Positions 25,123 to 54,351 of a stretch of 64,000 bases of DNA are shown here, piece after piece. The position numbers were made by a program, and so were the translations under genes. The DNA is from Methanobacteriota archaeon. GTDB taxonomy: Archaea > Halobacteriota > Methanomicrobia > Methanomicrobiales > Methanoculleaceae. The DNA is taken from positions 62,001 to 126,000 of the forward strand of contig JAENYE010000004.1 in assembly GCA_016841955.1 (NCBI GenBank). Reading direction: 5' to 3'. A model generated the notes under the pieces. It searched no databases, had not been told where the DNA came from, and was given only the letters and a program-made list of their open reading frames with translations. Numbering within the stretch: the first letter of the stretch is position 1; every line of letters starts with the position of its first letter.

Positions 25123-28100
25123 GCGCCAGGCGCGGGCCGCGCTCGACCACTCGACGAGCAAGTGCGTCACCGCCGGGGCTGGGACGGGAAAGACGCACGT
25201 CCTGGTGCAGAAGTACCTCAGCCTGCTCGAAGCCGGCGTCGGTGTCGGGAACATCCTCGCGCTGACCTTCACCGAGAAGGCGGCCGGCGAGATGAAGGTC
25301 CGGGTCCGCCAGGCCGTCGCGGAGAAGGAGGGCGAGCGGTGGGACGCGGTCCGCGACGAGTTTTTGTGGGCGAAGATATCGACCTTCCACTCCTTCTGCG
25401 CCTCCGTCCTCCGGGAGTTCCCGCTCGAGGCCGGTGTGGGGCCCGCCTTTGCCGTCCTCGACGAACGGGAGGCGGCCCGGCTCCGGGAGGAGGCGGTCGA
25501 GGACCTCATCCACGGCGATCCGCCCGCAGAGTGCCGGGAGGCGGTGATCGGCGCCCTCCGTGCCGTCGGGGCCTATGAACTAAAGAACTATCTCGAGCGG
25601 CTGTATGCCCGGCGCGAGGCCTCGGAGGCGTTCTTTATCGCCCTCGCGGAGAGCGAGGAGAGGGTTCTCGGCGCCTGGCGGGCGGTCGTGGAACGGCACT
25701 GGGAAGAGGCGGTCGAGGCCTTCCTCGCCCGTGCCGGAAGTTCCATCGAAACGCTCCGGGACCTTGCCACCCGCTACCCCGGCGACCGGGATCCGGGCGA
25801 GACCTACCTCCGGGCCGTCGAGCCGCACCTCGCCGATGAGATCGCGGTCGCCGCGATCGCCGGGGTTCATAAAGACCCGCGGTTCTCCGCCCGGATGGGG
25901 CGGAAGGCGAACTGGGCGGGTGACGACCTTGACAACTTCCGGGCGGCCTACCGGAACCTCGACGGGTGCCTCAAGGACCACGCGGGGTTCCTCTCGCTCG
26001 CCGTCGACCCGGAGGACCCTTTCACCCGGGCGACGCTTGAGTTCCTCCGCGACCTCGGCACGGTCTTTGCGGCCTTTCTGGGAGCGATCGAGACGGAGAA
26101 ACGACGGCGCAACGCCCTCGACTTCGACGACCTGGTCGACCGCACTCACCGGCTCTTTTGCGATCGCGACGACATCGTGGCGGCGCACTTCCGGGACCGG
26201 TTCCGGTTCGTCCTGGTCGACGAGTTCCAGGACACCGACCCCGTCCAGATCGCCATCATCCGCGCCATTCTCGGCGACCTCGCCCGGGAGCCTGCGAACC
26301 TCTTCATCGTCGGCGACCCGAAACAGTCCATCTACCTCTTCCGGGAGGCCGACGTGACGCAGTTCCGGCATACCCGCGACATGATCGAGCGGGACCTCGG
26401 CGGCGAGACGATCGCGCTCGACGTCAACTTCCGGAGCACGCCCGAGGTCGTCGGGTTCACGAACGCCGTCTTCGGCGCCCTGATGGCGGAGTCCGGACGC
26501 CCCTGGGAGTTCCTGTACGAACCGCTGCGGGCGAACCGGAAAGAAGACGCCGGCTCGGTCGAACTCCTCCTCTGCCCGAAGGTCAGGGACCGGGCGTCCG
26601 GCCGCCGGGCCGAAGCGGACCTGGCGGCAAGAAAGATCCGGGCCATCGTCAAGCGGGGGGAGAAACCGGTCTCCCGTGACGGGGAGGTCCGGCCGGCGGG
26701 GTACGGCGATGTGGCCGTCCTGCTCGAGCGGCGGACGAACCTCGCCTACTACGAATGGGCGCTCGGGCGCTACGGCGTCCCCTACCACGTCCACGCCGGG
26801 CTCGGGTTCTACGAGCGGCAGGAGGTCTACGACCTCTACAACATCCTCCGGTTCCTCGCGAACTACCTGGACGACGCGGCGCTCTACGGCCTGCTGCGGT
26901 CGCCCTACTTCGGGTTCTCCGACGCCCGGCTCTTTTCTATCGCCCGGCCGGGAGTCTCCCTCTGGGAGCGGCTGCGGGCGGAGGACCCCGATGCGGCGTC
27001 GACCCTCCTGGGGTGGCTCTCGCTCTCCCGCAGGCTCCCGCCCGCACGCCTTATCCGCCGGATTGTCGATGAGTCGGGGATCGCGGTGATCTTCGGTGGG
27101 ATGGCCGGGGGCGAGCAGGCGGGCGCAAACGTCGAGAAGCTCATCGCCATCGCGAGGGAGGCCGACTGCTCCACGCTCCCGGACCTCGTCGCGGAGCTCG
27201 GCCGCTGCATCGACGACGGGCAGCGGGAGGGGGATGCGCACCTCGACCTTGCGTCTGCGGACGCGGTCTCGATCATGACGGTGCACGCCGCGAAGGGGCT
27301 CGAGTTCCCGGTCGTCGTCGTCCCCGACCTTGCGGAAACGCCGCGGTCCGGCGGGGGCACCATCATGGTGGAGGATGGGCTGCGGCTCGGGGTCTCGATA
27401 CCGAACCCGGCAAACGACCACGAGCGCGAGGAGACGCCCATCCTCCGGGTCCTCAGGGACGAGCACCGGCAGAAGGAGGAGGCCGAGCGCAAACGGCTCT
27501 TCTACGTCGCCGCAACCCGGGCGAGGGACCACCTGATCCTCTGCGGGGAGACGCCGGCCGAGGCCCCGGAGACACTTCGCGACGGGAAGACCCGGATGGC
27601 CTGGCTCGCGCACTGCCTAGGGCTCTCTCCGGAGGTCTGTGCCCGCGGCGAAGCCGGGCTCGCGCTCCCTGGCGGGGAGAGGCTCCGTATCCCGCTCACC
27701 CTCGACCCCGCGGCGATCCCCGTCGACGTGCGTGAGACCGCTCCCGTATCTCTCCCGTTGCCGGACGACGTTCCCGCGGCGGCCGTTCCGGCAGCCCTTC
27801 TCCCGGACGGGGAGGAGGAGCATGCCTACTCGGCGAGCGAACTTGAGCGGTACCTCCACGGCCCGGCAGAATCCCGACCGCCGGGCATCGCCGCCGGGGA
27901 GGACCCCCTGGCCCGCGGCCTCGTCGTCCACGAGGTCTTCCGGGGCCGGGAGCCCGCCGCTGTGCTGCGGCGGTACGGAGTGGACCCCGGCCGGGCAGGG
28001 GAGTACCGGGAACTCTACGAGCGGTTCCTTGCGTCGCCCCTGATGCAGGGAGTCACCCGCGACCACCGCGAGGTGCCTTTTTGGGCGCGGGTACACGGCG

Positions 28101-28408
28101 TGGCGTTCAGGGGGGTCATCGACCGGCTGGTGCAGCGGCCGGACGGCGCCTGGGTGCTCATCGACTACAAGACAGGGACCCCGGGCGACGTCGAGAAGCA
28201 CGCGGTCCAGATGACGGTCTACCGGCACGCCGCCGCCCAGATACTCGGGCAGCCGGTCGTCCCCTATCTCTACTTCGCCGACGGCGACCGCTGGGTGGAG
28301 GTTGCGGTGGATGAGGAGCGGGTCTTTGATGCGATAGAACGAGCGGTCAGGGGGATCGAAGAGGGGGTCTTCCGGACCGCGGCGCGCGAGGGGTGCCGGA
28401 GGGTATAA
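25109..28408 (+). CDS. addA: AddA-like UvrD/RecB-family helicase-nuclease
   Basis: A 1099-residue SF1A helicase with a C-terminal nuclease. Helicase motifs: I AGAGTGKTHVLVQKYL near residue 22, Ia LTFTEKAAGEM, II FVLVDEFQDTDPVQ near 368, III IVGDPKQSIYLFREAD, IV LDVNFRSTPEVV, V TVHAAKGLEFPVVVV near 732, VI FYVAATRARDHL. The nuclease core is GVIDRLVQRPD then LIDYKTG near 1010-1028, with the upstream His in LVVHEVF. With the AddB-like protein it should form a heterodimeric resection nuclease, a bacterial-type complex that is rare in archaea. Translationally coupled to the preceding gene. Confidence 0.92.
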   Translation: MGLTERQARAALDHSTSKCVTAGAGTGKTHVLVQKYLSLLEAGVGVGNILALTFTEKAAGEMKVRVRQAVAEKEGERWDAVRDEFLWAKISTFHSFCASVLREFPLEAGVGPAFAVLDEREAARLREEAVEDLIHGDPPAECREAVIGALRAVGAYELKNYLERLYARREASEAFFIALAESEERVLGAWRAVVERHWEEAVEAFLARAGSSIETLRDLATRYPGDRDPGETYLRAVEPHLADEIAVAAIAGVHKDPRFSARMGRKANWAGDDLDNFRAAYRNLDGCLKDHAGFLSLAVDPEDPFTRATLEFLRDLGTVFAAFLGAIETEKRRRNALDFDDLVDRTHRLFCDRDDIVAAHFRDRFRFVLVDEFQDTDPVQIAIIRAILGDLAREPANLFIVGDPKQSIYLFREADVTQFRHTRDMIERDLGGETIALDVNFRSTPEVVGFTNAVFGALMAESGRPWEFLYEPLRANRKEDAGSVELLLCPKVRDRASGRRAEADLAARKIRAIVKRGEKPVSRDGEVRPAGYGDVAVLLERRTNLAYYEWALGRYGVPYHVHAGLGFYERQEVYDLYNILRFLANYLDDAALYGLLRSPYFGFSDARLFSIARPGVSLWERLRAEDPDAASTLLGWLSLSRRLPPARLIRRIVDESGIAVIFGGMAGGEQAGANVEKLIAIAREADCSTLPDLVAELGRCIDDGQREGDAHLDLASADAVSIMTVHAAKGLEFPVVVVPDLAETPRSGGGTIMVEDGLRLGVSIPNPANDHEREETPILRVLRDEHRQKEEAERKRLFYVAATRARDHLILCGETPAEAPETLRDGKTRMAWLAHCLGLSPEVCARGEAGLALPGGERLRIPLTLDPAAIPVDVRETAPVSLPLPDDVPAAAVPAALLPDGEEEHAYSASELERYLHGPAESRPPGIAAGEDPLARGLVVHEVFRGREPAAVLRRYGVDPGRAGEYRELYERFLASPLMQGVTRDHREVPFWARVHGVAFRGVIDRLVQRPDGAWVLIDYKTGTPGDVEKHAVQMTVYRHAAAQILGQPVVPYLYFADGDRWVEVAVDEERVFDAIERAVRGIEEGVFRTAAREGCRRV

Positions 28409-38950: not shown

Positions 38951-39862
38951 TTAGTTTGCTTCGTAACTCTGCAGGATCAGAGGTTTTGCTCTCTCCAGAT
39001 CTGTATCGGAGCGGATCAGTATTTCCAGGTCTCCAGTGCCGTAATGACCAATCTCTCTTACATCCCGGGTGAACCCTTGCTCTATCTCAACCGTATCGGG
39101 ATCGATCTTCACCCAAACGACAATCTCTTTTTTCTGAACGCCTATGGTCACACAGGCAAAGTTCTTGATCCGTTTGAACGCTACGTAGTACTTGAGCTCA
39201 TTTGTCTGGACGTCGTCCCCAAGTGCTTCGATGTAGGCTCTCAGCGCCTCAAAGCGGTCCTGAAGAACTACATCCGAACGTGCAAGATCTTCAGCGAACT
39301 TTCTATGAACTGATTTCGATCCTGTGCCGCCGTTGGATGTTGTAGCGACATTCTGAGCAGTGGTCGCATTTACAAGTTCAAATAGCAGGAGATTGTCTTC
39401 GAACTGTCGGTAGCGGATGAGTTCGACGTTGCGGTTGATCTGCTGGACGGCATGAACATCATACTTCGTAAAGTCGCCAGCGATGCACAGAAGCCGTGGA
39501 TTACTCCAGTCCAACTTCTCTTCGTAAGCTTTCCCCAGTTTTTTGAGAACCTTCAACTCGAATTCGCCTTTATGATCGAGGAGCCAGTCCAGGTAATAGA
39601 GGCCCTGATTGATGACGTTTTCATTAATGGCTCGTTTGTATTCGATGATGACCGGAAAGCCGTTCTCATCGATCCCTAGGGTATCGATGCGGCCGCCGTG
39701 CGTCTTTCCGGTGGAGTATTCGCTCTCGAGGAACGTGATCCCGAGCAGCGGTTCCAGATTCTTCTCGATGTAGACCTGAAGGGATTTCTCAAGTGCGACC
39801 GAAGACCCCTTGAGTTCACAGGCTTTCGGCCCGTCTTTGCGAAAGATACGGATGTCGCCCAT
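38951..39862 (-). CDS. PD-(D/E)XK nuclease-like protein (NucS/DUF5655 type)
   Basis: A 303-residue protein with a restriction-like fold in the N-terminal half: GGRIDTLGIDENGFPVIIEYKR carries Asp60, Glu74 and Lys76 as catalytic candidates, as in DUF91/NucS-like nucleases. The C-terminal part (LKYYVAFKRIKNFACVTI) matches the DUF5655 pattern that often follows it. A low-complexity linker (ATTSNGGTGSKS) separates the two. It follows the DUF365 gene by 4 bases on the same strand, and the pair is divergent from the helicase-Mod-Res-EVE operon, so a defence role is plausible but not proven. Confidence 0.75.
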   Translation of the reverse strand: MGDIRIFRKDGPKACELKGSSVALEKSLQVYIEKNLEPLLGITFLESEYSTGKTHGGRIDTLGIDENGFPVIIEYKRAINENVINQGLYYLDWLLDHKGEFELKVLKKLGKAYEEKLDWSNPRLLCIAGDFTKYDVHAVQQINRNVELIRYRQFEDNLLLFELVNATTAQNVATTSNGGTGSKSVHRKFAEDLARSDVVLQDRFEALRAYIEALGDDVQTNELKYYVAFKRIKNFACVTIGVQKKEIVVWVKIDPDTVEIEQGFTRDVREIGHYGTGDLEILIRSDTDLERAKPLILQSYEAN

Positions 39863-39866
39863 GGGT

Positions 39867-40295
39867 TCACGTCCTCAGATACTTTCCCCCGACCGGGACA
39901 AACCGCTCGGGTTTCTTCACCGTATTGTACTTCCGGATATCCTCAAGTTCGAGAGCCATCCACTGCTTCTTTTTCCCTCCGTCCTTTCTTACCCGCGGTC
40001 CTTTCCAGTGCTCCTGCCAGTCAAGATACTCCTTCACCTCTTCCCGCGTCAGGAATACTGTATCCCCGAAGGTCTCAAAGAATGCGAGCGGATCTTCGCC
40101 GATAATGATCCGCTTGATCGTCGCCTCCCCGACGTAGCCGGTATCCTCATGGGACTGGTAGAAGACGAGTTTCATGCCGCTCCGGAGTTCTTTGAAGACG
40201 GTGGCGGGCTTGATGAAGACGGTCTTGCCATCCTTGAAGAACCGTGGGGTGTACTTCTTCGGGACCGGGAAGGTGACGCCGGTGATCTCGCTCAT
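39867..40295 (-). CDS. DUF365 PUA-like domain protein
   Basis: A 142-residue archaeal DUF365 protein (PFFKDGKTVFIKP-like region at residues 17-30, ELRSGMKLVFYQSHEDTGYVGEA-like region near 36-58, then IIGEDPLAFFETFGD). The fold is expected to be PUA/EVE-like, that is, nucleic-acid or modified-base binding. The start at 40295 lies 147 bases from the divergent helicase gene. GAGGACGTGAACCC at its end serves as ribosome site for the nuclease gene. Two PUA/EVE-type proteins (this and the one at 49535) thus flank the restriction operon. Confidence 0.75.
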   Translation of the reverse strand: MSEITGVTFPVPKKYTPRFFKDGKTVFIKPATVFKELRSGMKLVFYQSHEDTGYVGEATIKRIIIGEDPLAFFETFGDTVFLTREEVKEYLDWQEHWKGPRVRKDGGKKKQWMALELEDIRKYNTVKKPERFVPVGGKYLRT

Positions 40296-40442: not shown

Positions 40443-43178
40443 ATGTCCCTTCCCCCAGACACATTCACCGAAAAAATTCTTACCGAACCCAGACCTCTTT
40501 CTGATCGACAACGGCGTGCTGTCCTCTGCGATCGCTCCTACATCCGCATCATTGCAGGCGCAGGGGCTGGAAAGACTGAGACTCTGACCAGGCGGATTGT
40601 CTACCTCCTCCTCGTGCAACAGATAGAGCCGTCTGCCATTGTCGCCTTTACGTTCACGGAAAAAGCAGCGCAGAGTATGAAGAGCCGTGTGTACGAGCGT
40701 GTAAAGCACCTTGGCGGAGATGAGATCTGTGCACGCCTTGGGGAGATGTTCATTGGCACTATTCATGGCTACTGCTATCGTCTTCTGGAAGAGCACTTTG
40801 GGTACGGGGACTGGGGCGTGCTTGATGAGAAACAGGAGATGGCGTACCTTATGCGGGTGGGGTGGGCTCTGGGGCTCGGGCGATCCGGTTATTATGCCAC
40901 TAACTGTGAGGATTTTGTCAACTCTCTGAATGTCTACTACGGCGAGATGATCCCGGAAGCAGCACTGAGAAAAAAGAAAGACAGAGAGTTCCTTGAAAAA
41001 CTGCGTCGTTACGAGGCGTCACTGGATCAGCGTAAGCGGCTCACGTTCAACCGCATGGTGCAGCTTGCTGTGGAGAACTTGCAAAAGCGTCCAAAAGTGG
41101 CTGAATACGTAAAATACCTCATTGTTGACGAGTACCAGGACATTAACCGCGCACAGGAAGAACTCATCCGATTAATAGGACTGGGGGGGAGCATCTTCAT
41201 TGTCGGCGATCCGCGACAGACGATTTACCAGTGGCGTGGCTCCGACGAACGGTGCTTCGAAGAGTTTGCCACGCGGTATCCGGAAGCAGTTACCATTCAT
41301 ATCACTGAGAACCGCCGTTCGACCGTAGCGGTGATCGAAACGGCAAATGGGTTCTCGGACACGTTTGAGGACCAGCATTACGATCACATGGATCCGGTTC
41401 GCCATGAGCAGGGCGGGGCGTATCTGGCAGAGATGCAGAGCGATATAACTGAGGTAGACTGGATTGTGGGTCAGATCCAGGCGCTCGTTAATGAGGGGAA
41501 ATGCAATTACAGTGACATCGCGCTCCTCTTCCGGAGCGTAAGCACCTCGGCACCCCCCTTCATCGATGAGTTCAGGCGTCGTGATATACCCTTTGTCGTT
41601 GGTGGGAAAGTGGGTCTGTTCCGTCGTCCAGAGATCCTGGGCATCGGGCAGTTGTTTGCCTGGCTGTGGGAGGACGGGTTCTGGCAACAGGGCAAGTGGT
41701 CAAAGTTGCCTGCTATCCGAGGCGAGGATCTGCTCGAAGAGGCGGTGGGAAACTGGAACCAGGGTATTCCGGACCTGGCGCTGGAGGATTCCGATATACT
41801 GAACCTTCGCCGCTGGAAGGACTCGGTGCTGAACAGTACCTACGATAACTTCTCTCAGGTCTTTGGAGAACTGCTCGTTCTGCTCGGGTACCACGGGCTC
41901 GATCCTGATGATGTACGCCATGCAGTCATCATGGCGAACCTGGGCCGGTTCAATACACTCCTGACCGACTACGAAACGGCAATTATGCTTGGGGGACGGC
42001 GCAGGAACTGGGAGGCCGACCTGAAAGGGCTGTGCTGGTACCTGAACACCTATGCGTCTTCGAAGTACGAAGAGCAGACCGGTGACGACATCGGTGGCGT
42101 GGACGCTGTGCAACTGGTGACAGTCCACCAGAGCAAGGGCCTAGAATGGCCGCTGGTGTTTCTGCCCTGTATGGTCCGGCAACGGTTCCCATCGAGCATG
42201 GTGGGCAAGGGGAGAACCTGGCTCATATCCCCTGAACTCTTTAATGTGGCAAAGTACGAGGGGGATCTGGAGAGCGAACGCAAACTCATGTACGTGGCGC
42301 TGACCCGGGCGAAGGACGTGGCTGTGGTGAGTTACTTCACGTCCATGAACGGGAGACGAAAAGGGCAGAGCGATTTTGTGGGTGGCATCGAAGAGCTGCC
42401 TTACGTCGAACCTCTCTCACAGAGAGACAGATTGCCAGATCACGACTATATGGCCGGCGGCGCTGTGGACGAGCTGCGTACATTTACTGCCGGCGAGATT
42501 GTGGACTACGGGAAGTGTGGCTACTTCTACAGGCTTCGGCATCTCTGGGAATACCAGCCGGGTCTCACCGACTATCTGGGATACGGGCAGACCTTGCACT
42601 TCTGCCTCCGGGAAGCTGCAGACCTGATGAAGAACGAGGAGTTGTCTCCGATGATTGCGGTGGCAACGGCAGTGGACCGGAACTTCTACATGCCGTTCAT
42701 GACCGAGGGACGAATGGAGAAGATTAAGCACGCAGCAAGAAATCATCTAATGAGATTTGCGGAGAAGTACCGCGACGATATGCTCCGTATACGGGAAGTG
42801 GAGACGAGGATCGAATTCCCGGTGCAGAACGCCATTGTGGTCGGGAAGGTGGATGTCATCCTACATGATGGGGATGCTGTGGAGGTGCGCGACTACAAGA
42901 CCTCCGACACGGCGACAACACCCGAGGACTCGGCACTCCAGGTGCAGCTTTACACCCGGGGGCTCTGCGTGGTCGGCGAAACCGTCTCCCGGGGTTCGGT
43001 GGCATTCCTCGAGGAGGCTGCTGTGGACGCTGTGGATGTGACCGAGCCGGCGGTGGCAGAGACGGTGGCACGGGTGGAGGAGCATATTGGGCGGATTCTC
43101 TCGGGCGACTTCACGGCATGTCCGGGGGAAGTCTGTGAGCGGTGCGACTATCGGGGCATTTGCAAGTGGCGAGCGTGA
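40443..43178 (+). CDS. UvrD/PcrA-like helicase with C-terminal Fe-S PD-(D/E)XK nuclease
   Basis: A 911-residue SF1A helicase-nuclease. Helicase motifs: AGAGAGKTETLTRRIVYLL near residue 35, VAFTFTEKAAQSM, YLIVDEYQDINRAQ near 225, IVGDPRQTIYQWRGSD, HITENRRST, VHQSKGLEWPLVFLP near 560, MYVALTRAKD. The C-terminal Cas4/AddB-like nuclease has VGKVDVILHDG then RDYKTSD near 817, and cluster Cys at 692 (YGKCGYFYRL), 898, 901 and 907 (CERCDYRGIC). It opens a four-gene operon with Mod, Res and EVE. A TATA-like AATAAATAATG lies near 40404-40414. Lower GC than the addAB pair, so not a recent duplicate of it. Confidence 0.9.
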   Translation: MSLPPDTFTEKILTEPRPLSDRQRRAVLCDRSYIRIIAGAGAGKTETLTRRIVYLLLVQQIEPSAIVAFTFTEKAAQSMKSRVYERVKHLGGDEICARLGEMFIGTIHGYCYRLLEEHFGYGDWGVLDEKQEMAYLMRVGWALGLGRSGYYATNCEDFVNSLNVYYGEMIPEAALRKKKDREFLEKLRRYEASLDQRKRLTFNRMVQLAVENLQKRPKVAEYVKYLIVDEYQDINRAQEELIRLIGLGGSIFIVGDPRQTIYQWRGSDERCFEEFATRYPEAVTIHITENRRSTVAVIETANGFSDTFEDQHYDHMDPVRHEQGGAYLAEMQSDITEVDWIVGQIQALVNEGKCNYSDIALLFRSVSTSAPPFIDEFRRRDIPFVVGGKVGLFRRPEILGIGQLFAWLWEDGFWQQGKWSKLPAIRGEDLLEEAVGNWNQGIPDLALEDSDILNLRRWKDSVLNSTYDNFSQVFGELLVLLGYHGLDPDDVRHAVIMANLGRFNTLLTDYETAIMLGGRRRNWEADLKGLCWYLNTYASSKYEEQTGDDIGGVDAVQLVTVHQSKGLEWPLVFLPCMVRQRFPSSMVGKGRTWLISPELFNVAKYEGDLESERKLMYVALTRAKDVAVVSYFTSMNGRRKGQSDFVGGIEELPYVEPLSQRDRLPDHDYMAGGAVDELRTFTAGEIVDYGKCGYFYRLRHLWEYQPGLTDYLGYGQTLHFCLREAADLMKNEELSPMIAVATAVDRNFYMPFMTEGRMEKIKHAARNHLMRFAEKYRDDMLRIREVETRIEFPVQNAIVVGKVDVILHDGDAVEVRDYKTSDTATTPEDSALQVQLYTRGLCVVGETVSRGSVAFLEEAAVDAVDVTEPAVAETVARVEEHIGRILSGDFTACPGEVCERCDYRGICKWRA

Positions 43179-43195
43179 TTGATGTGGATCAGAAG

Positions 43196-46100
43196 ATGGC
43201 AAAACACCAGGAAGAACGGTTAAAGCGGCACAAACAGCAGTTGAAGCAGAAACTTGCTGAATTGTTCCAGATAGACTCGCCGGACCTTGATTTTGGTGTC
43301 TACCGGATCATGAACCAGAAGCGGGACGAGATCACGCGGTTCATGGACAAGGACCTGGTCGAGGCTGTCGATGAAAAGTTCGGGGAGTGCGATGAAGAGA
43401 CCCGCACTCAGATAACAGGCGAACTCAAGGAACTTGAGCAGACCATCCGCAACACATACGGAGACGATGCCCTTGATGCTGCCGGCCTGAAGGAAGAGTA
43501 CCGGAAGGCGGCGAGGGGCAGAGAACTTCATGAGAAGTGGCAGCAGCTCCACCGCGATGCGGAAGAAGCCTCGATGAGCGATCTGCAGAAGGCGGAGATA
43601 TTCGCCCACCTGGAGGAGTTCTTTTCCCGCTACTACAAGGACGGCGATTTCCTGTCGCTCCGGCGGTATGCGGCGAACGAGAAGTACGCAGTGCCCTACA
43701 ACGGCGAGGAGGTGCTGCTCCACTGGGCGAACAAGGACCAGTACTACATCAAGACCGACCGATTCCTAAAGAACCACGGGTTTGACGTTGGGACGTACCG
43801 GGTGCTCTTTGAGGTGGTGCAGGTCGAGAGGCAGTCGAACGGGAACGGCACGGGCCGGTATTTCGTGCTTGCGGGCGATGATGCAGTGACGTATGACGAT
43901 GAGAAGCACCTGCTCACCGCCCGTTTCGCTCAGGTGCCCCTCTCAGATGACGACCTCCTCAGGCGCTTCCCGCCCGGGAGCGGACGGCAGAAGCCGAACC
44001 AGGACGATATCGTGGGCGGTCTGGTGGCCGAGATCCTGCGGGGCAATGGCATACCGAAGGGGCTCGCCGACGCCCTGCAGACGAACGAACGGGATACGGA
44101 CAGGAACCCGCGGCTCTACAAGCACGTGATGAGTTTTACGCGGGAGAATACGAGCGACTTCTTCATCCACAAGGACCTCGGTGGGTTCCTCCGGCAGGAG
44201 CTGGACTTCTACATCAAGAACGAGGTCTTCCGGCTGGACGATCTCGGGACGGAGAACGAGGTGGCGGTGGAGCGCTACGTGAAGCGGGCAAAGGTGCTCA
44301 AGTCCATCGCCCACCGGATCATCGACTTCCTGGCGCAGCTGGAGGACTTCCAGAAGACGCTCTGGGAGAAGAAGAAGTTCGTCCTGCGGACCGGCTACTG
44401 CATGACCCTCGACCACGTGCCGGAGGAGTTCTACCCCGAGATCCTGGCAAATGAGGGGCAACTGGCGGAGTGGCGGAACCTCTATGGTATCGGGGAGGCG
44501 AAGGGTGGACAGAAGACGCTTGCAGGCGACCGGGTCGATGAGGTGTTCCTACAGAGCCACCCGTACCTCGTCATCGACACGGCGCTCTTCGATGATGATT
44601 TCACGGACCGACTGCTCGAAGAACTGCAACACCCAGACGGCACGCCGGTGGAAGACCTGGACGAGGCCGTCGGCGGGCTGATGGTCAAGAGCGAGAACTG
44701 GCAGGCGCTGAACCTGCTGCAGGAGCGGTACCGGGAGCAGGTGAAGTGCATCTACATCGATCCGCCGTATAATACAGGGAATGACGAGTTCATCTACCGG
44801 GATAATTACCAGCACAGCAGTTGGTTGAGTATGATGGCGGACCGATTGAATCGCGCAAAGCCTCTACTTTTATCAGAAGGAACAATATTTACGAGCCTCG
44901 ATGATAATGAATTCGCAAACTATCGGCGACTAAGCGATCATATGTTTGGAGACGAAAATTTTATCTCAACAGTCATTTGGCAAAAAGTATTCGCTCCAAA
45001 GAATTCAGCACGGCATTTTTCAGGGGATCACGAATATATTGTAGTATATGCACAAAATGCAGAACGATGGCTACCGAATTTACTTCCTCGGAGTGCAAAT
45101 GCTGATGCAAGATATACGAATCCTGATAATGATCCCAGAGGGCCTTGGGCATCAGATAATTTAACTGCTAGAAATTATTACAGCGAAGGACTATATGGGG
45201 TTATCAGCCCGAATGGAACTGTATACAAGCCCCCCCGTGGGAGATATTGGGTGGTAAAAAAAGAGAAGTTCTTAGAACTTGATGCTGACAATCACATATG
45301 GTGGGGCGAGAAAGGAGGAAACATGCCCCGCCTTAAGAGATTTTTAAGCGATGTCAAACAAGGGATAGTCCCTCAGACGATATGGTCTTACAACGATGTT
45401 GGCCATACGCAAGAAGCAAAGCGAGATCTCTTGGCAACATCAACTGTGAGCGATCCGTCTGAAGTATTTTCAACTCCGAAGCCAGTCAGATTAATATCTA
45501 ATATTTTTACAATTGCTACTGCACCGGGTGGATCTGAGATTGTGCTTGATTTTTTTGCAGGTTCGGGCACAACTGCACAAGCAACACTAAAATTAAACAG
45601 CGAGGATAAAGGCAATCGGAAGTACATCCTCGTCGAGATGAGCGATTACTTCGACACTATTACGCAACCCCGCATCCAGAAGGTCATGTTCTCCTCCAAC
45701 TGGAAAGACGGCAAACCCCAGGACACCGACGGTCAGAGCCACATCTTCAAGTACATGGAAATCGAGCAGTACGAGGACACGCTCAACAACATCGAGTTCC
45801 TGGACCGGGACGGCCACGTCCAGGCCACCATCTTCGGCATGAGCGATTACATGCTCCGCTACTTCCTCGACGTCGAAACCCGGGAGAGTGCCTGCCGGCT
45901 GAACGTGGACCGGCTGGCGACGCCGTTCGCCTACACCCTCCGGGCACGCCGTGATGTGGGGTTCGACCATGTCCCGATCGATGAGGACGGGTTCCGGGAC
46001 GTGACCGTGGACCTCGTCGAGACCTTCAACTACCTCCTCGGGCTGCACGTCCGGCGCCGGGTGGTCAGGCACCAGGGCGGTCTCACCTACCGGATCGTCC

Positions 46101-46321
46101 ACGGCGTCCTCCCCGACGGTAAGGTCGTCACCATCGTCTGGCGCAACTCCCCGAAGAACCCCATTGGCCATGAGCAGGCTCTCGAAGCGGACGCGGCGTT
46201 CATCACCGACGAGATCCTCGGGGCGTTCCCTGACACCGGCGTCCTCTACGTCAACGGCCACTGCTTCGCATCCCGGGCAACGCCCATCGAGCCCGAGTTC
46301 AAGAAACGCATGGGAGCGTGA
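43196..46321 (+). CDS. mod: Type III-like DNA adenine methyltransferase (Mod), mosaic composition
   Basis: A 1041-residue N6-adenine (beta-class order) methyltransferase. A long helical N-terminal region (1-450) precedes motif IV DPPYNTGNDEF near residue 522; the target-recognition region follows; motif I FAGSGTTAQATLKL is near 786. Modifies host DNA and sets specificity for Res. The start is uncertain: ATG 43196 is used, while GTG 43175 overlaps the helicase stop; no strong ribosome site marks either. Bases from about 44820 to 45620, spanning the recognition region, are clearly AT-rich against GC-rich flanks, which points to exchange of that module. Res follows after 4 bases. Confidence 0.88.
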   Translation: MAKHQEERLKRHKQQLKQKLAELFQIDSPDLDFGVYRIMNQKRDEITRFMDKDLVEAVDEKFGECDEETRTQITGELKELEQTIRNTYGDDALDAAGLKEEYRKAARGRELHEKWQQLHRDAEEASMSDLQKAEIFAHLEEFFSRYYKDGDFLSLRRYAANEKYAVPYNGEEVLLHWANKDQYYIKTDRFLKNHGFDVGTYRVLFEVVQVERQSNGNGTGRYFVLAGDDAVTYDDEKHLLTARFAQVPLSDDDLLRRFPPGSGRQKPNQDDIVGGLVAEILRGNGIPKGLADALQTNERDTDRNPRLYKHVMSFTRENTSDFFIHKDLGGFLRQELDFYIKNEVFRLDDLGTENEVAVERYVKRAKVLKSIAHRIIDFLAQLEDFQKTLWEKKKFVLRTGYCMTLDHVPEEFYPEILANEGQLAEWRNLYGIGEAKGGQKTLAGDRVDEVFLQSHPYLVIDTALFDDDFTDRLLEELQHPDGTPVEDLDEAVGGLMVKSENWQALNLLQERYREQVKCIYIDPPYNTGNDEFIYRDNYQHSSWLSMMADRLNRAKPLLLSEGTIFTSLDDNEFANYRRLSDHMFGDENFISTVIWQKVFAPKNSARHFSGDHEYIVVYAQNAERWLPNLLPRSANADARYTNPDNDPRGPWASDNLTARNYYSEGLYGVISPNGTVYKPPRGRYWVVKKEKFLELDADNHIWWGEKGGNMPRLKRFLSDVKQGIVPQTIWSYNDVGHTQEAKRDLLATSTVSDPSEVFSTPKPVRLISNIFTIATAPGGSEIVLDFFAGSGTTAQATLKLNSEDKGNRKYILVEMSDYFDTITQPRIQKVMFSSNWKDGKPQDTDGQSHIFKYMEIEQYEDTLNNIEFLDRDGHVQATIFGMSDYMLRYFLDVETRESACRLNVDRLATPFAYTLRARRDVGFDHVPIDEDGFRDVTVDLVETFNYLLGLHVRRRVVRHQGGLTYRIVHGVLPDGKVVTIVWRNSPKNPIGHEQALEADAAFITDEILGAFPDTGVLYVNGHCFASRATPIEPEFKKRMGA

Positions 46322-46325
46322 GGCC

Positions 46326-49300
46326 GTGGCAGCACAGCGGGGACGAAAAAAAGGACAAAAGTCCGGGAAATCATCGAAGGAGGAGGGACTCCGGCCGTGG
46401 CTGGTCAAGTGCGCCTTCGCGTACCGCCTTTTCGGGATGAAGTCCTTCCAGGACTTTCAGGGTACCCTCGCCGGTGTCGAGGAGGGTGAGGGCGAGGACG
46501 GGCACACCCACTACTACCACGTCCTCAAGAGCGACACCCGGTTCCGGAAAGACGCCGGCGTCACGCTCGATGAGTTGCGGAACTACGACGACAACATCGT
46601 CCGGCACATGCACCGCATCAATACCCACCGTGACGTCCCCATCAACCTCAAGTACTACCAGTGGCTTGCCGCCCTCTTCACCGAGGCCTACCTGGATCGC
46701 TACTTCCAGAGCCCCGGGAGACTCGCCTCCCTGGTCGAGGAATCGGTGAAGGAGTACATCAAGGAGACGTTTCCGTCCATCCTGGACCCCTATGAGTATT
46801 ACGAGCGGTACATGCCGGGCATGGACGACCTCCGTAAGTGTGCTTACTGGATGGCGACCGGTTCGGGCAAGACCTTCCTCATTCACCTTGTCTACCTCCA
46901 GTTCCAGCACTACAACAAAGGGCCCCATCGGCTGGACATCGACCACATTCTCCTCATCACCCCTAATCGTGACCTCACCGCCCAGCACCTCCGGGAGATG
47001 AAGAAAAGCAGCATCCCCTGCACCGAGTTCGACGCCACCGGACTCGGCGGCTACTTCCAGCGGCAGTCCGAGGAGGCCGTGAACGTCATCGAGATCACGC
47101 GGTTCACGGAGGACAAGCAGGACGGCGGTCTCAAACGGGTGGATATCGAGAGTTTCGGCAGGAAGAACCTCGTCTTCGTGGACGAGGCCCACAAGGGCAG
47201 CGGCGGGGAGAAGTGGAAGATGTTCCGGCGCGAGGTCGCCCGTGAGGGTTTCACCTTCGAGTACAGCGCCACCTTCGGGCAGGCGGCGGCTTCCGGAGGT
47301 GATAATGACAACCTCGCCGAATTTGCCAAGACCATCCTCGTCGACTACTCCTACCCGCACTTCTACAACGACGGTTACGGTAAGGAGTACCGCATCCTCA
47401 ACGTCAACAAATCCACGTATGAAACGGACCGGGTGCTCCTCGCAAACCTTCTCACCTACTACGAGCAGAAACTGATCTTCGAGGACCTCAAGGACGTCGC
47501 CACTGCCGAGTACAACATCGCCGACCCGCTCTGGATATTCGTGGGGAGCAAGGTCAATGTCTCCGGAACCAAATCCGACGTGCTCACGGTCGTCCGGTTC
47601 CTGCAGAAGGTTCTCACCGAGCGGGACTGGATGGTCCGGACCACGGATGAGTTCCTCCAGGGGAAATCCGGCCTCCTTCACGAAAAGACCAAACACGACC
47701 TCTTCAGTCCGGCCTACCCCGAGCAGCGCCTCCGTTACCTCAGGGAGCGTGGGCTGAGCGCGGAGGAGATCTACGGCGACATGCTCGGCCGCATCTTCCG
47801 GTGTGCCGAACCCGCCGGTCTTACTCTCGTGCTCCTGAAGAACACCGACGGGGAGATCGGTCTCAAAAGCGGCGACAACGACTTCTTTGGTGATATCTAC
47901 GTCGGAGACGCAACAAAGTTCATAAAGATCGTCGAAGAGCACGAACCGCAGATCGATATCGAGAAGATCGATCATCCCTCCCTCTTCCGCGCCATCGACG
48001 CCCCGGACTCCACCGTGAACGTGCTCATCGGTGCGAAGAAGTTCATCGAAGGCTGGGACTGCTACCGGGTCTCCTGCATGGGGCTCATCAACATCGGGAA
48101 GAGCGAGGGCACCGAGATCATCCAGCTCTTCGGGCGCGGGGTCCGGCTCAAGGGCAGGAACAACTCTCTCAAACGCAGCACCAACGATGCCGGTGATCAG
48201 CCCCCTGACCTCCCGCTTCTGGAGACACTCAACATCTTCGGGGTCGACGCCAAGTACATCGGCTACCTGCGCGAGTTCCTCACCATCGAGGGTGTTGATA
48301 ATTACAAGACTATTGAACGCCAGATCGCAATCAAAGTCTGCGAAGATCACCTCCGCGAAGGTCTGCTCATCCCCCACTGGGAGAAGACCGGATTCGAGAG
48401 GAAACGGCGGTTCGTCCTGACCAGAGATCACATCACTCCGGTAAGGGTTGATCTCCTCGCCAAAGTGGAGAGTGAGGACAGCACGTATTACAAGGGTTTG
48501 GAGGCCGACACCCGTCCCGACCCTGTCTCAGTCGACCCGCGCTACCTGGATCTCGTAGACTGGGACACGGTGTACTTTACCCTCCTTGAGCACAAGAGCA
48601 GCAAGGGCTGGAAGAATATGGTCTTCGACAAAACCCTGTTGCGGGAGATCATAGAAGACCCCGGGTGCTACACCCTGTACTGTGCCGACCACGTTGTCAA
48701 CCCCGAATTGTTTGAGGATGTGCAGAAACTGCAGGACGTGATTGTGCTTGTCCTGAAAAAATCGCTCCAGACAGCATACAGCCGGCAGAAGAATGCATGG
48801 ATGATGGAGACCATCCGGATCGAACGCCTTTCAGAGTCACACGGTAACTTCGAGTTCAAGAAGTACGTTGTAAAAGTGCGGGAAATCGAGACGGATGTAA
48901 TCGAGGCAATCGATGCACTCGTCCGGCAGGTCGATCGGATCTATGCGGATGGGAACACAAAATTCGTTACCAATATCTTCTTCCAGAACCACCTGTATCA
49001 GCCGCTGCTCGCAAAAACCAGTAAGGCATCAAGCAAAATCGCCGCGCTCTCCCCCGAAGGGCTCAATGACGGCGAAGAAAAACTAGTGCAGGGGATTAAG
49101 GGCTACATCGATGAGCATGCAGATCTCTTTGACGGGAAAAAGGTCTACTTGCTTCGCAACATCCCGAAGACCGGCATCGGATTTTACAAAAACTCATGGT
49201 TCTACCCGGATTTCATCATGTGGGTGGTCGACGATAGTAAGCAGCATATCGTCTTCCTTGAGCCGCACGGGATGGTATTCAGTTCCGGCCCTGAAGATGA

Positions 49301-49538
49301 AAAGGTGCAACTTGCAGAGGACATCAAGGCAATCGAGCGGAAGATCAATGCAACATACCGGGATAAAGGCATTGAATGTGGAATATCGCTCGACTCTTTC
49401 ATCATCTCCGTGAGCCAGCCGGGCATGGTGGCAGAGCCATATCTTTACGGGACAAAAGAGCAGCGGAAGAAGTACCATGTCCTTTCCCTTTACCAATCAG
49501 ATTTCATCAAGGAGTTGTTTGAATTCGTTCTCTCATGA
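46326..49538 (+). CDS. res: Type III-like restriction helicase-nuclease (Res)
   Basis: A 1070-residue SF2 ATPase. Walker A is WMATGSGKTFL near 176, motif II VFVDEAHKGSG near 284, motif III YSATFG, and the C-terminal helicase half has IGAKKFIEGWDCYRVSCMGL and QLFGRGVRLKG (motif VI) near 600. Near the end, WFYPDFIMWVVDD and IVFLEPHGM occupy the nuclease position; the expected second-acidic-x-Lys is EPH here, so the active site may be altered. Start is GTG 46326 with GTGAGG upstream. It would translocate and cut DNA lacking Mod methylation. Its TGA overlaps the EVE start. Confidence 0.87.
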   Translation: MAAQRGRKKGQKSGKSSKEEGLRPWLVKCAFAYRLFGMKSFQDFQGTLAGVEEGEGEDGHTHYYHVLKSDTRFRKDAGVTLDELRNYDDNIVRHMHRINTHRDVPINLKYYQWLAALFTEAYLDRYFQSPGRLASLVEESVKEYIKETFPSILDPYEYYERYMPGMDDLRKCAYWMATGSGKTFLIHLVYLQFQHYNKGPHRLDIDHILLITPNRDLTAQHLREMKKSSIPCTEFDATGLGGYFQRQSEEAVNVIEITRFTEDKQDGGLKRVDIESFGRKNLVFVDEAHKGSGGEKWKMFRREVAREGFTFEYSATFGQAAASGGDNDNLAEFAKTILVDYSYPHFYNDGYGKEYRILNVNKSTYETDRVLLANLLTYYEQKLIFEDLKDVATAEYNIADPLWIFVGSKVNVSGTKSDVLTVVRFLQKVLTERDWMVRTTDEFLQGKSGLLHEKTKHDLFSPAYPEQRLRYLRERGLSAEEIYGDMLGRIFRCAEPAGLTLVLLKNTDGEIGLKSGDNDFFGDIYVGDATKFIKIVEEHEPQIDIEKIDHPSLFRAIDAPDSTVNVLIGAKKFIEGWDCYRVSCMGLINIGKSEGTEIIQLFGRGVRLKGRNNSLKRSTNDAGDQPPDLPLLETLNIFGVDAKYIGYLREFLTIEGVDNYKTIERQIAIKVCEDHLREGLLIPHWEKTGFERKRRFVLTRDHITPVRVDLLAKVESEDSTYYKGLEADTRPDPVSVDPRYLDLVDWDTVYFTLLEHKSSKGWKNMVFDKTLLREIIEDPGCYTLYCADHVVNPELFEDVQKLQDVIVLVLKKSLQTAYSRQKNAWMMETIRIERLSESHGNFEFKKYVVKVREIETDVIEAIDALVRQVDRIYADGNTKFVTNIFFQNHLYQPLLAKTSKASSKIAALSPEGLNDGEEKLVQGIKGYIDEHADLFDGKKVYLLRNIPKTGIGFYKNSWFYPDFIMWVVDDSKQHIVFLEPHGMVFSSGPEDEKVQLAEDIKAIERKINATYRDKGIECGISLDSFIISVSQPGMVAEPYLYGTKEQRKKYHVLSLYQSDFIKELFEFVLS

Positions 49539-50029
49539 GAACTACCAAACCAAACATTTACGTCTTTTTCTCGCAATCACTCTGCATGACACGTTGGCTT
49601 GCAGTATCCAACCGGACAAACTGGGAGGTCACCCGGAAGAAGAACATCTGGGGTGTTCCTCAGCGCAATAAAAACATCATCGAACGGGTGAAACCTGGCG
49701 ATACGGTCCTCATCTACGTATCACAGCAGAAAGAGGGCGTCAATCTGCTTCCATCGGCCGTGACCGGAGCATTCGAGGTGGTATCTGAGCCTTTCGAGGA
49801 GCGAACGAAGGTGTTTGTTGCACCGGAGCAGATGGGTGACGAGGTCTTCCCGTACCGGATAAAACTGAAGCCAATAAAAGTTTTCGAGCCTCCAGTAGAG
49901 TTCAAGCCGCTCATCCCGAAGCTGAAATTTATTACCAATAAGACGATGTGGACAGGGCATATACGACTGGCCATGCGGGTGATTCCGGAGGAGGACTACC
50001 AGACAATCCTGAATGCTGCAAAATCCTGA
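49535..50029 (+). CDS. EVE-domain protein (modified-base reader)
   Basis: A 164-residue EVE (PUA/YTH-like) protein, overlapping Res by ATGA. Family features are TRWLAVSNRTNWEVTRKKNIWG at residues 19-40, VKPGDTVLIYVSQQK near 53, and FPYRIKLKPIKVFEPPVEF near 104. EVE domains bind modified cytosines or other altered bases; in bacteria they occur fused to McrB-type and other restriction proteins. In this operon it may give Mod/Res or the helicase-nuclease a sensor for modified DNA. GC is lower than in res. Confidence 0.85.
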   Translation: MRTTKPNIYVFFSQSLCMTRWLAVSNRTNWEVTRKKNIWGVPQRNKNIIERVKPGDTVLIYVSQQKEGVNLLPSAVTGAFEVVSEPFEERTKVFVAPEQMGDEVFPYRIKLKPIKVFEPPVEFKPLIPKLKFITNKTMWTGHIRLAMRVIPEEDYQTILNAAKS

Positions 50030-50173: not shown

Positions 50174-51019
50174 ATGATGTCCCAGACTGCCAGTATAGAG
50201 AAAAATCTCTCATTATTGCGCTATCCTGGGGGGAAACAGAGGTATGTATGTTATTTCTCTCATCTCCTCCCTCTTGAATCTCAATCCGTCCGGACGTATG
50301 TCGAACCCTTTCTAGGGGGTGGTTCAGTCTTCTTCCACATAAATCCCGAAAAAGCGATCCTTTCTGATATCAACAGAGAACTCATCGATCTGTATCTGGG
50401 TATCAGGAAAAACCCGGCCATTGTCTGGGAACTCTACAGCAGGTATCCGGCAAATAAGGCAGGATATTATAAAATAAGGAGCCTGAACCGTGATGACCTT
50501 CATCTCCTGGAGCGAGCCGCACGAACCCTCTACCTGAACCGAACCTGTTTCAAAGGCATGTGGCGCCACAACAACAACGGCGAATTCAACGTGGGCTACG
50601 GAGGTCAGGAACGACGCTGGGTAATAGGGCCGGATGATCTCCACACGGTGGCACAGCGACTCCAGCACGCAGTTCTAATTTGCTGCGATTTTGAGGAAAC
50701 CATTGCCTCATGTCGTGAAGGGGATTTTCTCTACCTTGACCCCCCATACTGCCCGGGTGAACGCGAACAGCTGCATGCTCATTACATGTTCGGCGAGTTC
50801 AACTTCGAGGATCACAAGAGGCTTGCATCGTGTCTTCGTGAAGCTACAGAGCGTGGAGTACAGTGGGTCATGACAAACTCGTCTCACCCGGACGTTCTCG
50901 CACTATATGACGACTACTCTATGTACCGGCTCGATAGAGGAACCGGTTCGAGCCCCGGACGGATAACAACGGAGCCTGGGGAAATGGTGATCTACCACGT
51001 AAACGAGGTGCCCTCATGA
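50174..51019 (+). CDS. Dam-family (D12 class) DNA adenine methyltransferase
   Basis: A 281-residue alpha-class N6-adenine methyltransferase. Motif X is LLRYPGGKQRYV, motif I VEPFLGGGSVFFHI near residues 43-56, the specificity region includes LNRTCFKGMWRHNNNGEFNVGYG, and motif IV is LYLDPPYC near 187. Dam-type enzymes mark short sites such as GATC; the site here is unknown. The HerA start overlaps its stop (ATGA), so the two are co-translated. ATG 50177 is an alternative start. Inference: it marks host DNA for the HerA-NurA-HATPase module. Confidence 0.9.
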   Translation: MMSQTASIEKNLSLLRYPGGKQRYVCYFSHLLPLESQSVRTYVEPFLGGGSVFFHINPEKAILSDINRELIDLYLGIRKNPAIVWELYSRYPANKAGYYKIRSLNRDDLHLLERAARTLYLNRTCFKGMWRHNNNGEFNVGYGGQERRWVIGPDDLHTVAQRLQHAVLICCDFEETIASCREGDFLYLDPPYCPGEREQLHAHYMFGEFNFEDHKRLASCLREATERGVQWVMTNSSHPDVLALYDDYSMYRLDRGTGSSPGRITTEPGEMVIYHVNEVPS

Positions 51020-53028
51020 TGAATATGCAGGCATTCTGCAGCAGTGCGGCGATGCAGGAGCACCCGCTACGGAGACTCTCAGATTTTCTGGTGGAAGAAA
51101 AACGAAAGGTCACGAGCGGGGATTATGAGAATTCCCGATTTGTGGGATACGTACTCGAAATCGGCTACACAACGGCAACCATCATCACATCGGATGCCTT
51201 CAAAAAGGCTGTGGGAGGCATCCCCCGGAACTCACTTCTCATCATGGTCCCCACCGAATACGAAAAATATCCCCCTCATTTCTCCCTGCTACGGGTTCTT
51301 GAAACAGCGGATGAACCACTGAAGCAGGAAAAGCAACAGACCTACTTCGAGTTGCACAAAAAGTCCATGCCTGAACTGGATGTATTCACCCAAAGCGAGC
51401 TTCAGTGGGGTGCATTGAAGACGGCAGTCCTTGGGATGTATTACCCTCACCCTGACCGACCGAATGCGGTTGAACTTTCCGGAGACCTCAATAACATCGT
51501 GAGCGCTCACAAGTACCTTGTATATGCCCCCAGTGATGAACTCCTTGATCTTATCATAAACGCTACGGTTCCACAGGAAAACAGGTGCGATATTGGAACA
51601 TTGCGATTGACCGAATGTCGGTTGCCACTTCCGGGGCAAACCATGCACACAGTCCCCGTGGCAATATCCACAAACGACTTCAAAGGCACCAGAACTGCCA
51701 TGTTTGGGAAAACCCGCACAGGTAAAAGCAATATTGTAAAAATCATTGCCGAGAGCGTCATCCTAACAACCAGACTGGCACCCGCAGGGGAAGATACTCG
51801 GACACATACCGTGGGACAGGTCATTTTCGACATTAACGGTGAGTACGCCAACGATAACCCTCAGGACGATAGTGCATCTCTGGCAACTGCACATGCTGAC
51901 GACTGTCAGATTTATGCCATCACGCCCAAGGCCAATACACCGTCACATCCGCTTCGACTGGACTTCTATGCACATCCTGATATCTCCCATCACATCCTCA
52001 ACACCTTTATACGCGAACAGGAACGACATCCCTCTGACTACGTAAACAGCTTCCTTTCAGTAGAAATCCCCTCATTTGAACAGATCGGCGGGATGGAGGG
52101 GCGAGGAGATCAGATCCGTGCTCGAAGGAAGATCCTGATGTACTGGGCCATCCTCCATCGGGCTGGTTTCACCCCGAACATGGGAACAATTCGACAGTTA
52201 GGGGGCGTAGATCCAAGGTTTGCGGATCAGACTCGAACAGCTGTTTACCAATCGGTGGACCAAACACCACCTCGATCAATAAACACTCTTGATGAACTCG
52301 CACATGAACTGGAGCTCTTCGCACAACGAGATCGCGATGGAGGAAGGCTTCGTTCAACCTCCGGGGATCATAACCTCTTCGACTCCGATGATGAAGCGCT
52401 GCTTGGATTCTTGGTTCCACGATCCAGTTCTGCAAGCGGCCCAAGAAAACTTCAGCGCTATAGGGTCTATCACGATCCGAACGCTGCAAACTTTGTGACC
52501 GAGATAATCCAACTTGTTGATCAGGGACAGACTGTCATTCTCGATTTAAGCAACGCGCATCCTGAGGTTATGAGTTACTTCTCACGATGGCTCTCAGAGG
52601 AGATCTTTGCTCATCAGGTTGATTTGTTCTCGTCAAACATGCTCAATGATCACTATATCCAGCTGTACTTCGAGGAGGCCCATAACCTGTTCCCTGCCGA
52701 TGAACAGAAAATTGTCGATATCTACAGCAGGATCGCAAAAGAAGGAGCAAAATATCACCTCGGTATGGTTTATTCCACACAGTCGCCGTCAACCATCAGC
52801 CGGGATCTCCTTGCACAAACAGAGAATTTCTTTGTCACCCATATCTCCTCGCGGCCAGAGGTTACCAAACTCGCAAATTTGAACGTAGCATACGAGGATC
52901 TTATTGAAGATATACTTCAAACAAAAACGCAGGGGTATGTGCGGATGCTCACTCGGTCGCACCGTTTTGTGATTCCTGTCCAGGCAAACAAGTTTACTCC
53001 CCAACCCTCTTCTCGAAGGTGTGTGTAA
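51016..53028 (+). CDS. herA: HerA-like hexameric DNA translocase
   Basis: A 670-residue FtsK/HerA ATPase. The N-terminal HAS-barrel-like part (SRFVGYVLEIGYTTATIIT) precedes Walker A FGKTRTGKSNIVKI near residue 231, Walker B QLYFEEAHNLFP near 552, the sensor VYSTQSPSTIS, and a C-terminal HVTKLANL-type region before the tail. HerA pumps duplex DNA and activates NurA in archaeal end resection. The NurA gene follows with no gap. Here Mre11 and Rad50, normally adjacent in archaea, are absent, and a methyltransferase is upstream, which suggests a defence version. Codon usage is AT-richer than in the core genes. Confidence 0.9.
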   Translation: MMNMQAFCSSAAMQEHPLRRLSDFLVEEKRKVTSGDYENSRFVGYVLEIGYTTATIITSDAFKKAVGGIPRNSLLIMVPTEYEKYPPHFSLLRVLETADEPLKQEKQQTYFELHKKSMPELDVFTQSELQWGALKTAVLGMYYPHPDRPNAVELSGDLNNIVSAHKYLVYAPSDELLDLIINATVPQENRCDIGTLRLTECRLPLPGQTMHTVPVAISTNDFKGTRTAMFGKTRTGKSNIVKIIAESVILTTRLAPAGEDTRTHTVGQVIFDINGEYANDNPQDDSASLATAHADDCQIYAITPKANTPSHPLRLDFYAHPDISHHILNTFIREQERHPSDYVNSFLSVEIPSFEQIGGMEGRGDQIRARRKILMYWAILHRAGFTPNMGTIRQLGGVDPRFADQTRTAVYQSVDQTPPRSINTLDELAHELELFAQRDRDGGRLRSTSGDHNLFDSDDEALLGFLVPRSSSASGPRKLQRYRVYHDPNAANFVTEIIQLVDQGQTVILDLSNAHPEVMSYFSRWLSEEIFAHQVDLFSSNMLNDHYIQLYFEEAHNLFPADEQKIVDIYSRIAKEGAKYHLGMVYSTQSPSTISRDLLAQTENFFVTHISSRPEVTKLANLNVAYEDLIEDILQTKTQGYVRMLTRSHRFVIPVQANKFTPQPSSRRCV

Positions 53029-54351
53029 ATGCCATATCAGCAGGGTTCACGACTTCCAGGGGAACGTGCCAGCCGACTGGGCCACCTGGATATACTCGAT
53101 TACCCGCTGGTTAACGAGTTACTTGAGAGTTTCAAACGCCAGTATGTGCCTGATGAATGCCGAGCCGTGGAATGGCAAGAGATGCCGGATTCTGGAGAAC
53201 CACTCAAGTACATCTTTGCAGTGGACGGATCCCTACAGAGGATTGACCATGATACCGTTCCTTACTCCTCCATAGCATTCATCAAAACAGCCATGATAAA
53301 ACTTGATACTCATGCACTCGCAAGGGTGGATAAGGAAAATCCACATCCATTTGTTTTACGTGACATCCTGCGAGAGTCGGTAATATTCCATGCAACATTG
53401 CTCCCGCTACGAAACACATGGAGTGAAGGGAGTACTATCTATGATACGGTTCGTCAAACGATCTACAAATCTATCTGCGATGCCTCCCCTGGAATGAATG
53501 GTCAAATTCTCGAGACTCTCAAGTGGCTTGCATACAGGAAATGGGGGGAAACTAAGAGGGGTCTGCCCGAATTTGAATGTCCGCATGGGCATGAAGGAAA
53601 TAAACATCTGACCACTCTGCCTTACAATGCTGAAAGCGGTAGGTGTCCCACGTGCGGAAAGGAAGTGTATATTACTGACTTCCTTGGTTTCCATCTTGAA
53701 ATGGGCGAAGAAGCAGCTTCACCGACAATTGCCTCCACCTATATGATCCTGCATGAGACACTTCTTCTATTCACCGCGGTCAGATTGTTTTGGGAGAACC
53801 ATCGTGAATTGTTGTCAGAGTGCCTCTTCTTGAAGGATGGTCCTCTTTCTATTCGTGCCCAGTATTCAAAACTCGTTGAACCAATCAGATCATTCCTTGC
53901 CTATGCCCAGGAGAGCGGTCATCCCATACACATTATAGGACAGGAAAAATCAGGGACATTCTACGATCACCTGCAGTTTATAGGTAAAGATGCACCAACA
54001 ATGAGTTTTCTTACCCTGCAGGACCTCTACATCAAGAGACACATCCAGTGCCGCCCGGAAAATGGGGCCCCGTATGGGAAGGATACAAACTACGGTGCAA
54101 AAGTCTTTGTTAAACTGAACAATTATCACATGATGGTTCTGAACATTCCATTCGGATTGTACACTCAAAACCCTCAATCGGAAGATCTCATTGGATGGGA
54201 GAGGATCTTTGCCACACTCCCGACGATTCTGAGCAATCGATATGAGGGAGCGCTCCTACCCATAGAACTCGCCAACGGGATTGCGTCGCTGTCCACATAT
54301 CCATCTGCAAAGATTCTGAAGTTATTCTCTGAAGATGGATTGCACCTGTAA
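53029..54351 (+). CDS. nurA: NurA-like nuclease with zinc-ribbon insertion
   Basis: A 440-residue NurA-domain protein. The first catalytic Asp is in YIFAVDGSLQR (Asp66), the second acidic site in CLFLKDGPLSIRAQ near 271, and the C-terminal LPTILSNRYEGALLPIELANG matches the NurA end. An insertion at about 184-212 carries CPHGH and CPTCGK, a probable zinc ribbon not usual in the family. NurA degrades DNA ends when HerA feeds them. It directly abuts herA (stop and start adjacent), so the two proteins should form a complex. Confidence 0.87.
   Translation: MPYQQGSRLPGERASRLGHLDILDYPLVNELLESFKRQYVPDECRAVEWQEMPDSGEPLKYIFAVDGSLQRIDHDTVPYSSIAFIKTAMIKLDTHALARVDKENPHPFVLRDILRESVIFHATLLPLRNTWSEGSTIYDTVRQTIYKSICDASPGMNGQILETLKWLAYRKWGETKRGLPEFECPHGHEGNKHLTTLPYNAESGRCPTCGKEVYITDFLGFHLEMGEEAASPTIASTYMILHETLLLFTAVRLFWENHRELLSECLFLKDGPLSIRAQYSKLVEPIRSFLAYAQESGHPIHIIGQEKSGTFYDHLQFIGKDAPTMSFLTLQDLYIKRHIQCRPENGAPYGKDTNYGAKVFVKLNNYHMMVLNIPFGLYTQNPQSEDLIGWERIFATLPTILSNRYEGALLPIELANGIASLSTYPSAKILKLFSEDGLHL

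Follow-up and report, generated by a model that had tools for sequence, protein, structure and literature searches.

A putative type III-like restriction operon with a co-inherited UvrD-Cas4-like helicase-nuclease and an accessory EVE gene in a Methanoculleaceae genome

The window (the whole 64,000-nucleotide stretch analysed here, from a genome of 2.43 Mb) carries four co-directional genes in the order UvrD-Cas4, Mod, Res and EVE (Table 1). This layout was proposed in an earlier note made from the sequence alone; it was borne out by Pfam, PADLOC and ORF checks, and the gene order recurs in other genomes more than expected by chance. The analysis supports UvrD-Cas4 as a stable, inherited partner of Mod and Res in one Res clade that is missing from most distant relatives, while EVE is an optional, lineage-specific accessory and not part of the core. 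With confidence slightly better than even, the locus is read as a type III-like restriction-modification system with an attached helicase-nuclease, accompanied by EVE and a DUF365-NucS pair as a modification-sensing companion. Gene content, catalytic motifs, clade-wide co-inheritance of UvrD-Cas4, exchange of the Mod recognition region and recurrence of the cassette are observed directly; the activities, complexes and targets discussed below are predictions from sequence. Two further groups of genes, absent from the earlier note, flank the operon: divergent DUF365 and NucS-like DUF5655 genes upstream of the helicase gene and, downstream, genes for a D12 methylase, a HerA-like ATPase, a NurA-like protein and a sacsin/NOV_C-type protein.

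Table 1. Genes of the operon and its flanks, with positions in the window.
Feature	Position	Strand	Evidence
NucS_C-like nuclease, C-terminal DUF5655	38951..39862	-	DUF5655 1e-12, NucS_C 5.2e-5; PADLOC candidate PDC-S18 6.9e-143
DUF365 protein	39867..40295	-	DUF365 3.8e-36; 4 nt before NucS-like gene
UvrD SF1 helicase + Cas4/AddB-like PD-(D/E)XK nuclease fusion	40443..43178	+	UvrD 3.5e-50, PDDEXK_1 2.5e-19, Cas_Cas4 2.8e-6
Mod-like N6/N4 methyltransferase	43175..46321 (start inferred)	+	N6_N4_Mtase 4.8e-36; PADLOC MTase_III 1.3e-173
Res-like SF2 helicase, C-terminal PD...EPHG nuclease motif	46326..49538	+	ResIII 4.5e-12; PADLOC REase_III 5.4e-138
EVE domain protein	49586..50029 (start preferred; ORF from 49535)	+	Pfam EVE 4.2e-27; 2p5d 6.5e-45
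D12-class adenine methylase	50174..51019	+	MethyltransfD12 6.6e-46
HerA-like ATPase	51016..53028	+	DUF87/HerA 1.2e-9
Protein in NurA position after HerA	53029..54351	+	label by position and size only
Large sacsin/NOV_C-type protein, 1,624 aa	54515..59389	+	60% identical L030 relative carries SACS, NOV_C

The spacings of 17, 4 and -4 nucleotides first proposed for the four genes stood only in part. The 4 nucleotides between Mod and Res hold, the GTG start at 46326 being conserved in three relatives. The gap of 17 between UvrD-Cas4 and Mod is doubtful, as the ATG at 43196 on which it depends is ACA in the relative L028. The longest Mod ORF covers 43142-46321 (+), and the Mod start is more likely either 43175, in a GTGA/ATGA overlap with the UvrD stop that the window shares with L028 and L030, or a second candidate at 43187, 12 nt past that start. 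The overlap of -4 between Res and EVE is probably wrong. In comparisons with two close operons, the first 17 codons of the ORF from 49535 have 0-1 synonymous and 2-3 non-synonymous changes, against 26-39 synonymous and 7-14 non-synonymous changes in the remainder, so the segment before Met18 appears free of purifying selection. This codon-change pattern, a frameshift in the same segment of L030 and the EVE structures 2p5d and 1wmm, whose alignments begin at Met18, favour a start at 49586 over 49535, and the gap after Res is probably 47 nt. The codon changes and the frameshift also rule out translational coupling of Res and EVE through the ATGA.

The putative methyltransferase has the features of a type III Mod. 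As in EcoP1I and EcoP15I, its motif order is that of the beta class, with DPPY before FxGSG; its catalytic motifs are intact and conserved, and its profile matches EcoP15I Mod at 3.7e-58. The type III character extends to a variable recognition region, at about residues 601-790 of the 43142 ORF, which is only 19% identical between close operons with N-terminal halves 90-94% identical. A Halobacterium plasmid Mod matches this region at 56% identity, against 36-39% in the rest of the protein. Such exchange among relatives is the sequence signature expected of a specificity determinant.

Res shares with EcoP1I and EcoP15I a place in a mod-res pair, SF2 helicase motifs and a C-terminal PD-(D/E)XK-type nuclease motif. 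The motifs ATGSGKT, DEAH/DEGH, SAT, QLFGRGVR and PD...(E/D)P(H/K)G were present in all 52 sequences compared, with the nuclease-motif lysine replaced by histidine in 34. Within this nuclease motif (residues 953-974, in an ORF given as 46350-49538) the acidic residue and the Lys-to-His change are coupled, the combination being EPHG in 32/52 and DPKG in 18/52. Beyond the helicase motifs, profile comparison detected no sequence relationship with EcoP1I Res (hhalign against P1 Res aligned 39 columns at a probability of 6.7), and searching PDB sequences with the Res profile returned no match. The AlphaFold model (mean pLDDT 82.6) has a predicted SF2 core, and both Foldseek and VIA-align placed it among SF2 helicases, including EcoP15I Res and HsdR at similar scores; EcoP15I Res aligned over 375 residues with a Z of 12.1, tied with many SF2 proteins, and the structure matches barely covered the nuclease domain.

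EVE, whose family match spans the whole domain, lies directly after Res in four near-identical operons (that of the window and three others). It also follows Res in L093 (also numbered L160), an Archaeoglobaceae locus that lacks UvrD-Cas4, placing a same-strand EVE directly after Res in two separate Res lineages. In a third lineage, L034, an EVE-NucS-DUF365 group is divergent and upstream of the operon. Most members of the UvrD-Cas4 clade have no EVE nearby, which rules EVE out as a core component. It was not found near Res in L032, L033, L156, L157, L023 or L166, nor in L031, where only 505 nt were available. The slot after Res is filled by modification-dependent nucleases in a few relatives, namely an Mrr-family nuclease in L157 and GmrSD in 2 of the 40 loci scanned, most other occupants being housekeeping genes. 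From its family (PMC7641849), a role for EVE in recognising modified bases in viral DNA is plausible.

The divergent DUF365-NucS pair is a probable part of a recurring EVE-DUF365-NucS cassette. In Methanomicrobia, 19 of 36 distinct EVE genes adjoin a DUF365 and/or NucS-like gene, and the NucS-like gene adjoins EVE and/or DUF365 in many relatives. DUF365 is divergent from UvrD-Cas4 in the window, L028, L030, L271 and L202. Elsewhere, cassettes or their parts are flanked by type I restriction-modification genes (L258, L260, L264, L269), BREX genes (L256, L257, L261), SNF2 helicases (L263, L267, L268, L270, two of them with PLD domains) or an Eco57I-type methylase (L266), and four (L255, L259, L262, L265) have other neighbours. 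This recurrence beside methylation-based systems is suggestive only, since the loci were picked for containing EVE or NucS and carry no background rate. The literature texts searched contained no mention of DUF365 or NucS partners of EVE, or of a type III-like EVE association, and the cassette is apparently undescribed. As a tentative proposal, which we hold to be possible and well short of probable, EVE, DUF365 and the NucS-like DUF5655 protein may form a portable modification-dependent restriction cassette, carried by many methylation-based defences and destroying base-modified phage DNA. The EVE of the operon is itself a lineage separate from the DUF365-linked EVEs of its genus in a tree with modest branch support, so that its derivation as a displaced partner of the divergent DUF365-NucS pair is unsupported.

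Downstream, the D12 methylase gene opens a separable Dam-HerA-(NurA-like) module, which adjoins the operon in L028, L029 and L034 and occurs without it in L254. The protein in the NurA position, which has no Pfam, PADLOC or PDB match, was found in 5 of the 232 genomes of the class. Although four of these five occurrences adjoin the operon, the solitary module in L254 leaves its membership of the system unsupported. In L030 the module is missing and a sacsin/NOV_C-type protein directly follows EVE.

EVE, DUF365-NucS and Dam-HerA could instead be independent neighbours in a defence island, with no functional tie to UvrD-Mod-Res, and to this we assign somewhat less than an even chance. It agrees with the six loci above in which EVE is missing, with the variation of EVE position and lineage between loci and with the occurrence of Dam-HerA-(NurA-like) alone; the same-strand EVE after Res in two separate lineages and the recurrence of the cassette beside several methylation-based systems argue against it.

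The helicase and nuclease motifs of UvrD-Cas4 are invariant in an alignment of homologues, as are four nuclease cysteines (C692, C898, C901 and C907) across seven homologues, lending sequence support to the Fe-S label given to the protein earlier; the cluster itself is predicted from this conservation. A Res-family scan with one genome per species confirmed 529 relatives; the 80 best were taken and supplemented with class, phylum, plasmid and viral-contig loci. A FastTree phylogeny built from 117 Res proteins contains a 12-member clade, with local support 99, in which UvrD-Cas4 lies beside Mod without exception. This clade contains four families of the order to which the window belongs and one family from elsewhere in the phylum, and also takes in an Athalassotoga (Thermotogota) plasmid and a viral contig. 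Three further UvrD-Cas4 loci lie outside it, apart on the tree. The UvrD-Cas4 label requires four changes on this tree, against a mean of 14.4 when shuffled, and none of 500 shuffles was as low. UvrD, Mod and Res distances correlate (Pearson 0.89-0.94). Together, the clustering on the tree, the clade-wide presence and the distance correlation identify the helicase as a stable partner within the clade.

Among the 71 assessable loci, in which over 3 kb of sequence precedes Mod, the slot upstream of Mod held UvrD-Cas4 in 12, an SNF2 helicase in 19 and neither in 40. The earlier note had reasoned that absence of the helicase and EVE genes from most mod-res relatives would make the link incidental. 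Taken literally, that absence is found for the helicase; it follows the tree and is not random, however, and the conclusion drawn from it fails for a partner inherited throughout one clade. The SNF2 helicase occupies the slot in a different Res branch, indicating that a motor gene upstream of Mod was acquired repeatedly. This shared position, together with the strict retention of UvrD-Cas4 in its clade, would also fit a core restriction subunit, whereby the Mod-Res complex depends on an additional motor or nuclease, supplied as either UvrD-Cas4 or SNF2. We regard a core role as unlikely, although credible: the 40 loci with neither helicase indicate that Mod-Res can exist without one, and UvrD-Cas4 is also found alone. 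The data fit UvrD-Cas4 both as an end processor and as a second motor.

Several other observations concern this protein and its surroundings. Solo UvrD-Cas4 proteins in L243 and L245 carry an additional N-terminal NERD nuclease domain. In one close relative, L029, a 981-aa protein sits between the UvrD-Cas4 and Mod genes, with a GGGGYGKT P-loop and an apparently repeat-rich C terminus, perhaps STAND/NACHT-like by eye. The window also encodes, at 22024-28408 (+), an AddB/AddA-like pair, one member being a PDDEXK_1 nuclease protein and the other a UvrD helicase-nuclease, which would give the genome general end-processing besides UvrD-Cas4. The UvrD and Res of L030 (G167), a metagenome bin assigned to another family, are 92-93% identical to those of the window, reflecting either recent transfer or misbinning.

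Under the preferred reading, that of a type III-like system with an attached helicase-nuclease and a modification-sensing companion, Mod would bind the site that its exchangeable recognition region dictates and methylate host copies of it, presumably at N6-adenine. Its partner would be Res, with an SF2 ATPase and a C-terminal nuclease, which would cut unmethylated DNA. UvrD-Cas4 may load on the resulting ends or nicks and, like AddAB and RecBCD, unwind the DNA and degrade or resect it. EVE and the divergent DUF365-NucS pair could then sense base-modified viral DNA that escapes Mod-Res and direct its destruction. Several observations count against this reading: UvrD-Cas4 is also found without Mod-Res of this family and may serve general repair, most of the clade lacks EVE, Res is remote in sequence from EcoP1I Res, and the EVE of the operon stands apart from the DUF365-linked EVEs of its genus. 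That EVE instead reads the methyl mark of Mod or of the D12 methylase and restrains or regulates the nucleases in self-recognition is improbable. In its favour, EVE belongs to the PUA superfamily, the related YTH domain of archaea binds DNA carrying m6A (PMC7641849), and the stretch encodes two methyltransferases. Against it, the EVE proteins characterised first read 5mC and 5hmC (PMC7641849), and EVE is kept while the Mod recognition region is exchanged. If the cassette works as proposed, it would be a general add-on closing a loophole through which modified phages evade restriction, and it opens the function of the uncharacterised DUF365 and DUF5655 proteins to direct testing.

Compared with type III restriction-modification systems, the Mod of the window is larger (about 1,050 aa, where EcoP15I Mod has 644), its Res is remote in sequence and an extra helicase-nuclease is present. 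The neighbourhood of UvrD-Cas4, Mod and Res was published by Hudaiberdiev et al. 2017 (PMC5704561), who found Mod-Res to be the commonest context of UvrD-Cas4 and considered it ancillary to defence. The same fusion protein, of a UvrD SF1 helicase with a pfam12705 Cas4-like nuclease, adjoins type III-like Mod and Res here. The pairing itself is therefore already known; EVE is additional in the lineage of the window, and EVE, PUA, HerA and SNF2 are not mentioned in the text of that study. The present results add that the linkage holds throughout one clade of Res and that SNF2 is an alternative occupant of the slot. The non-subscription literature searched contained no description of the combination of type III, EVE and UvrD. 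Standalone EVE proteins were reported with type I restriction-modification and COG1743-DUF499-SNF2 systems by Bell et al. 2020 (PMC7641849), and the present locus likewise attaches a standalone EVE to a methylation-based system, as seen mostly in archaea; the main text of that paper does not mention type III systems, DUF365, NucS or DUF5655. EVE-HNH proteins of the VcaM4I type are modification-dependent endonucleases (PMC7897488), similarly pairing an EVE reader with a nuclease, whereas in the window separate genes encode the putative reader and the nuclease, the latter being NucS/DUF5655-like and of predicted function.
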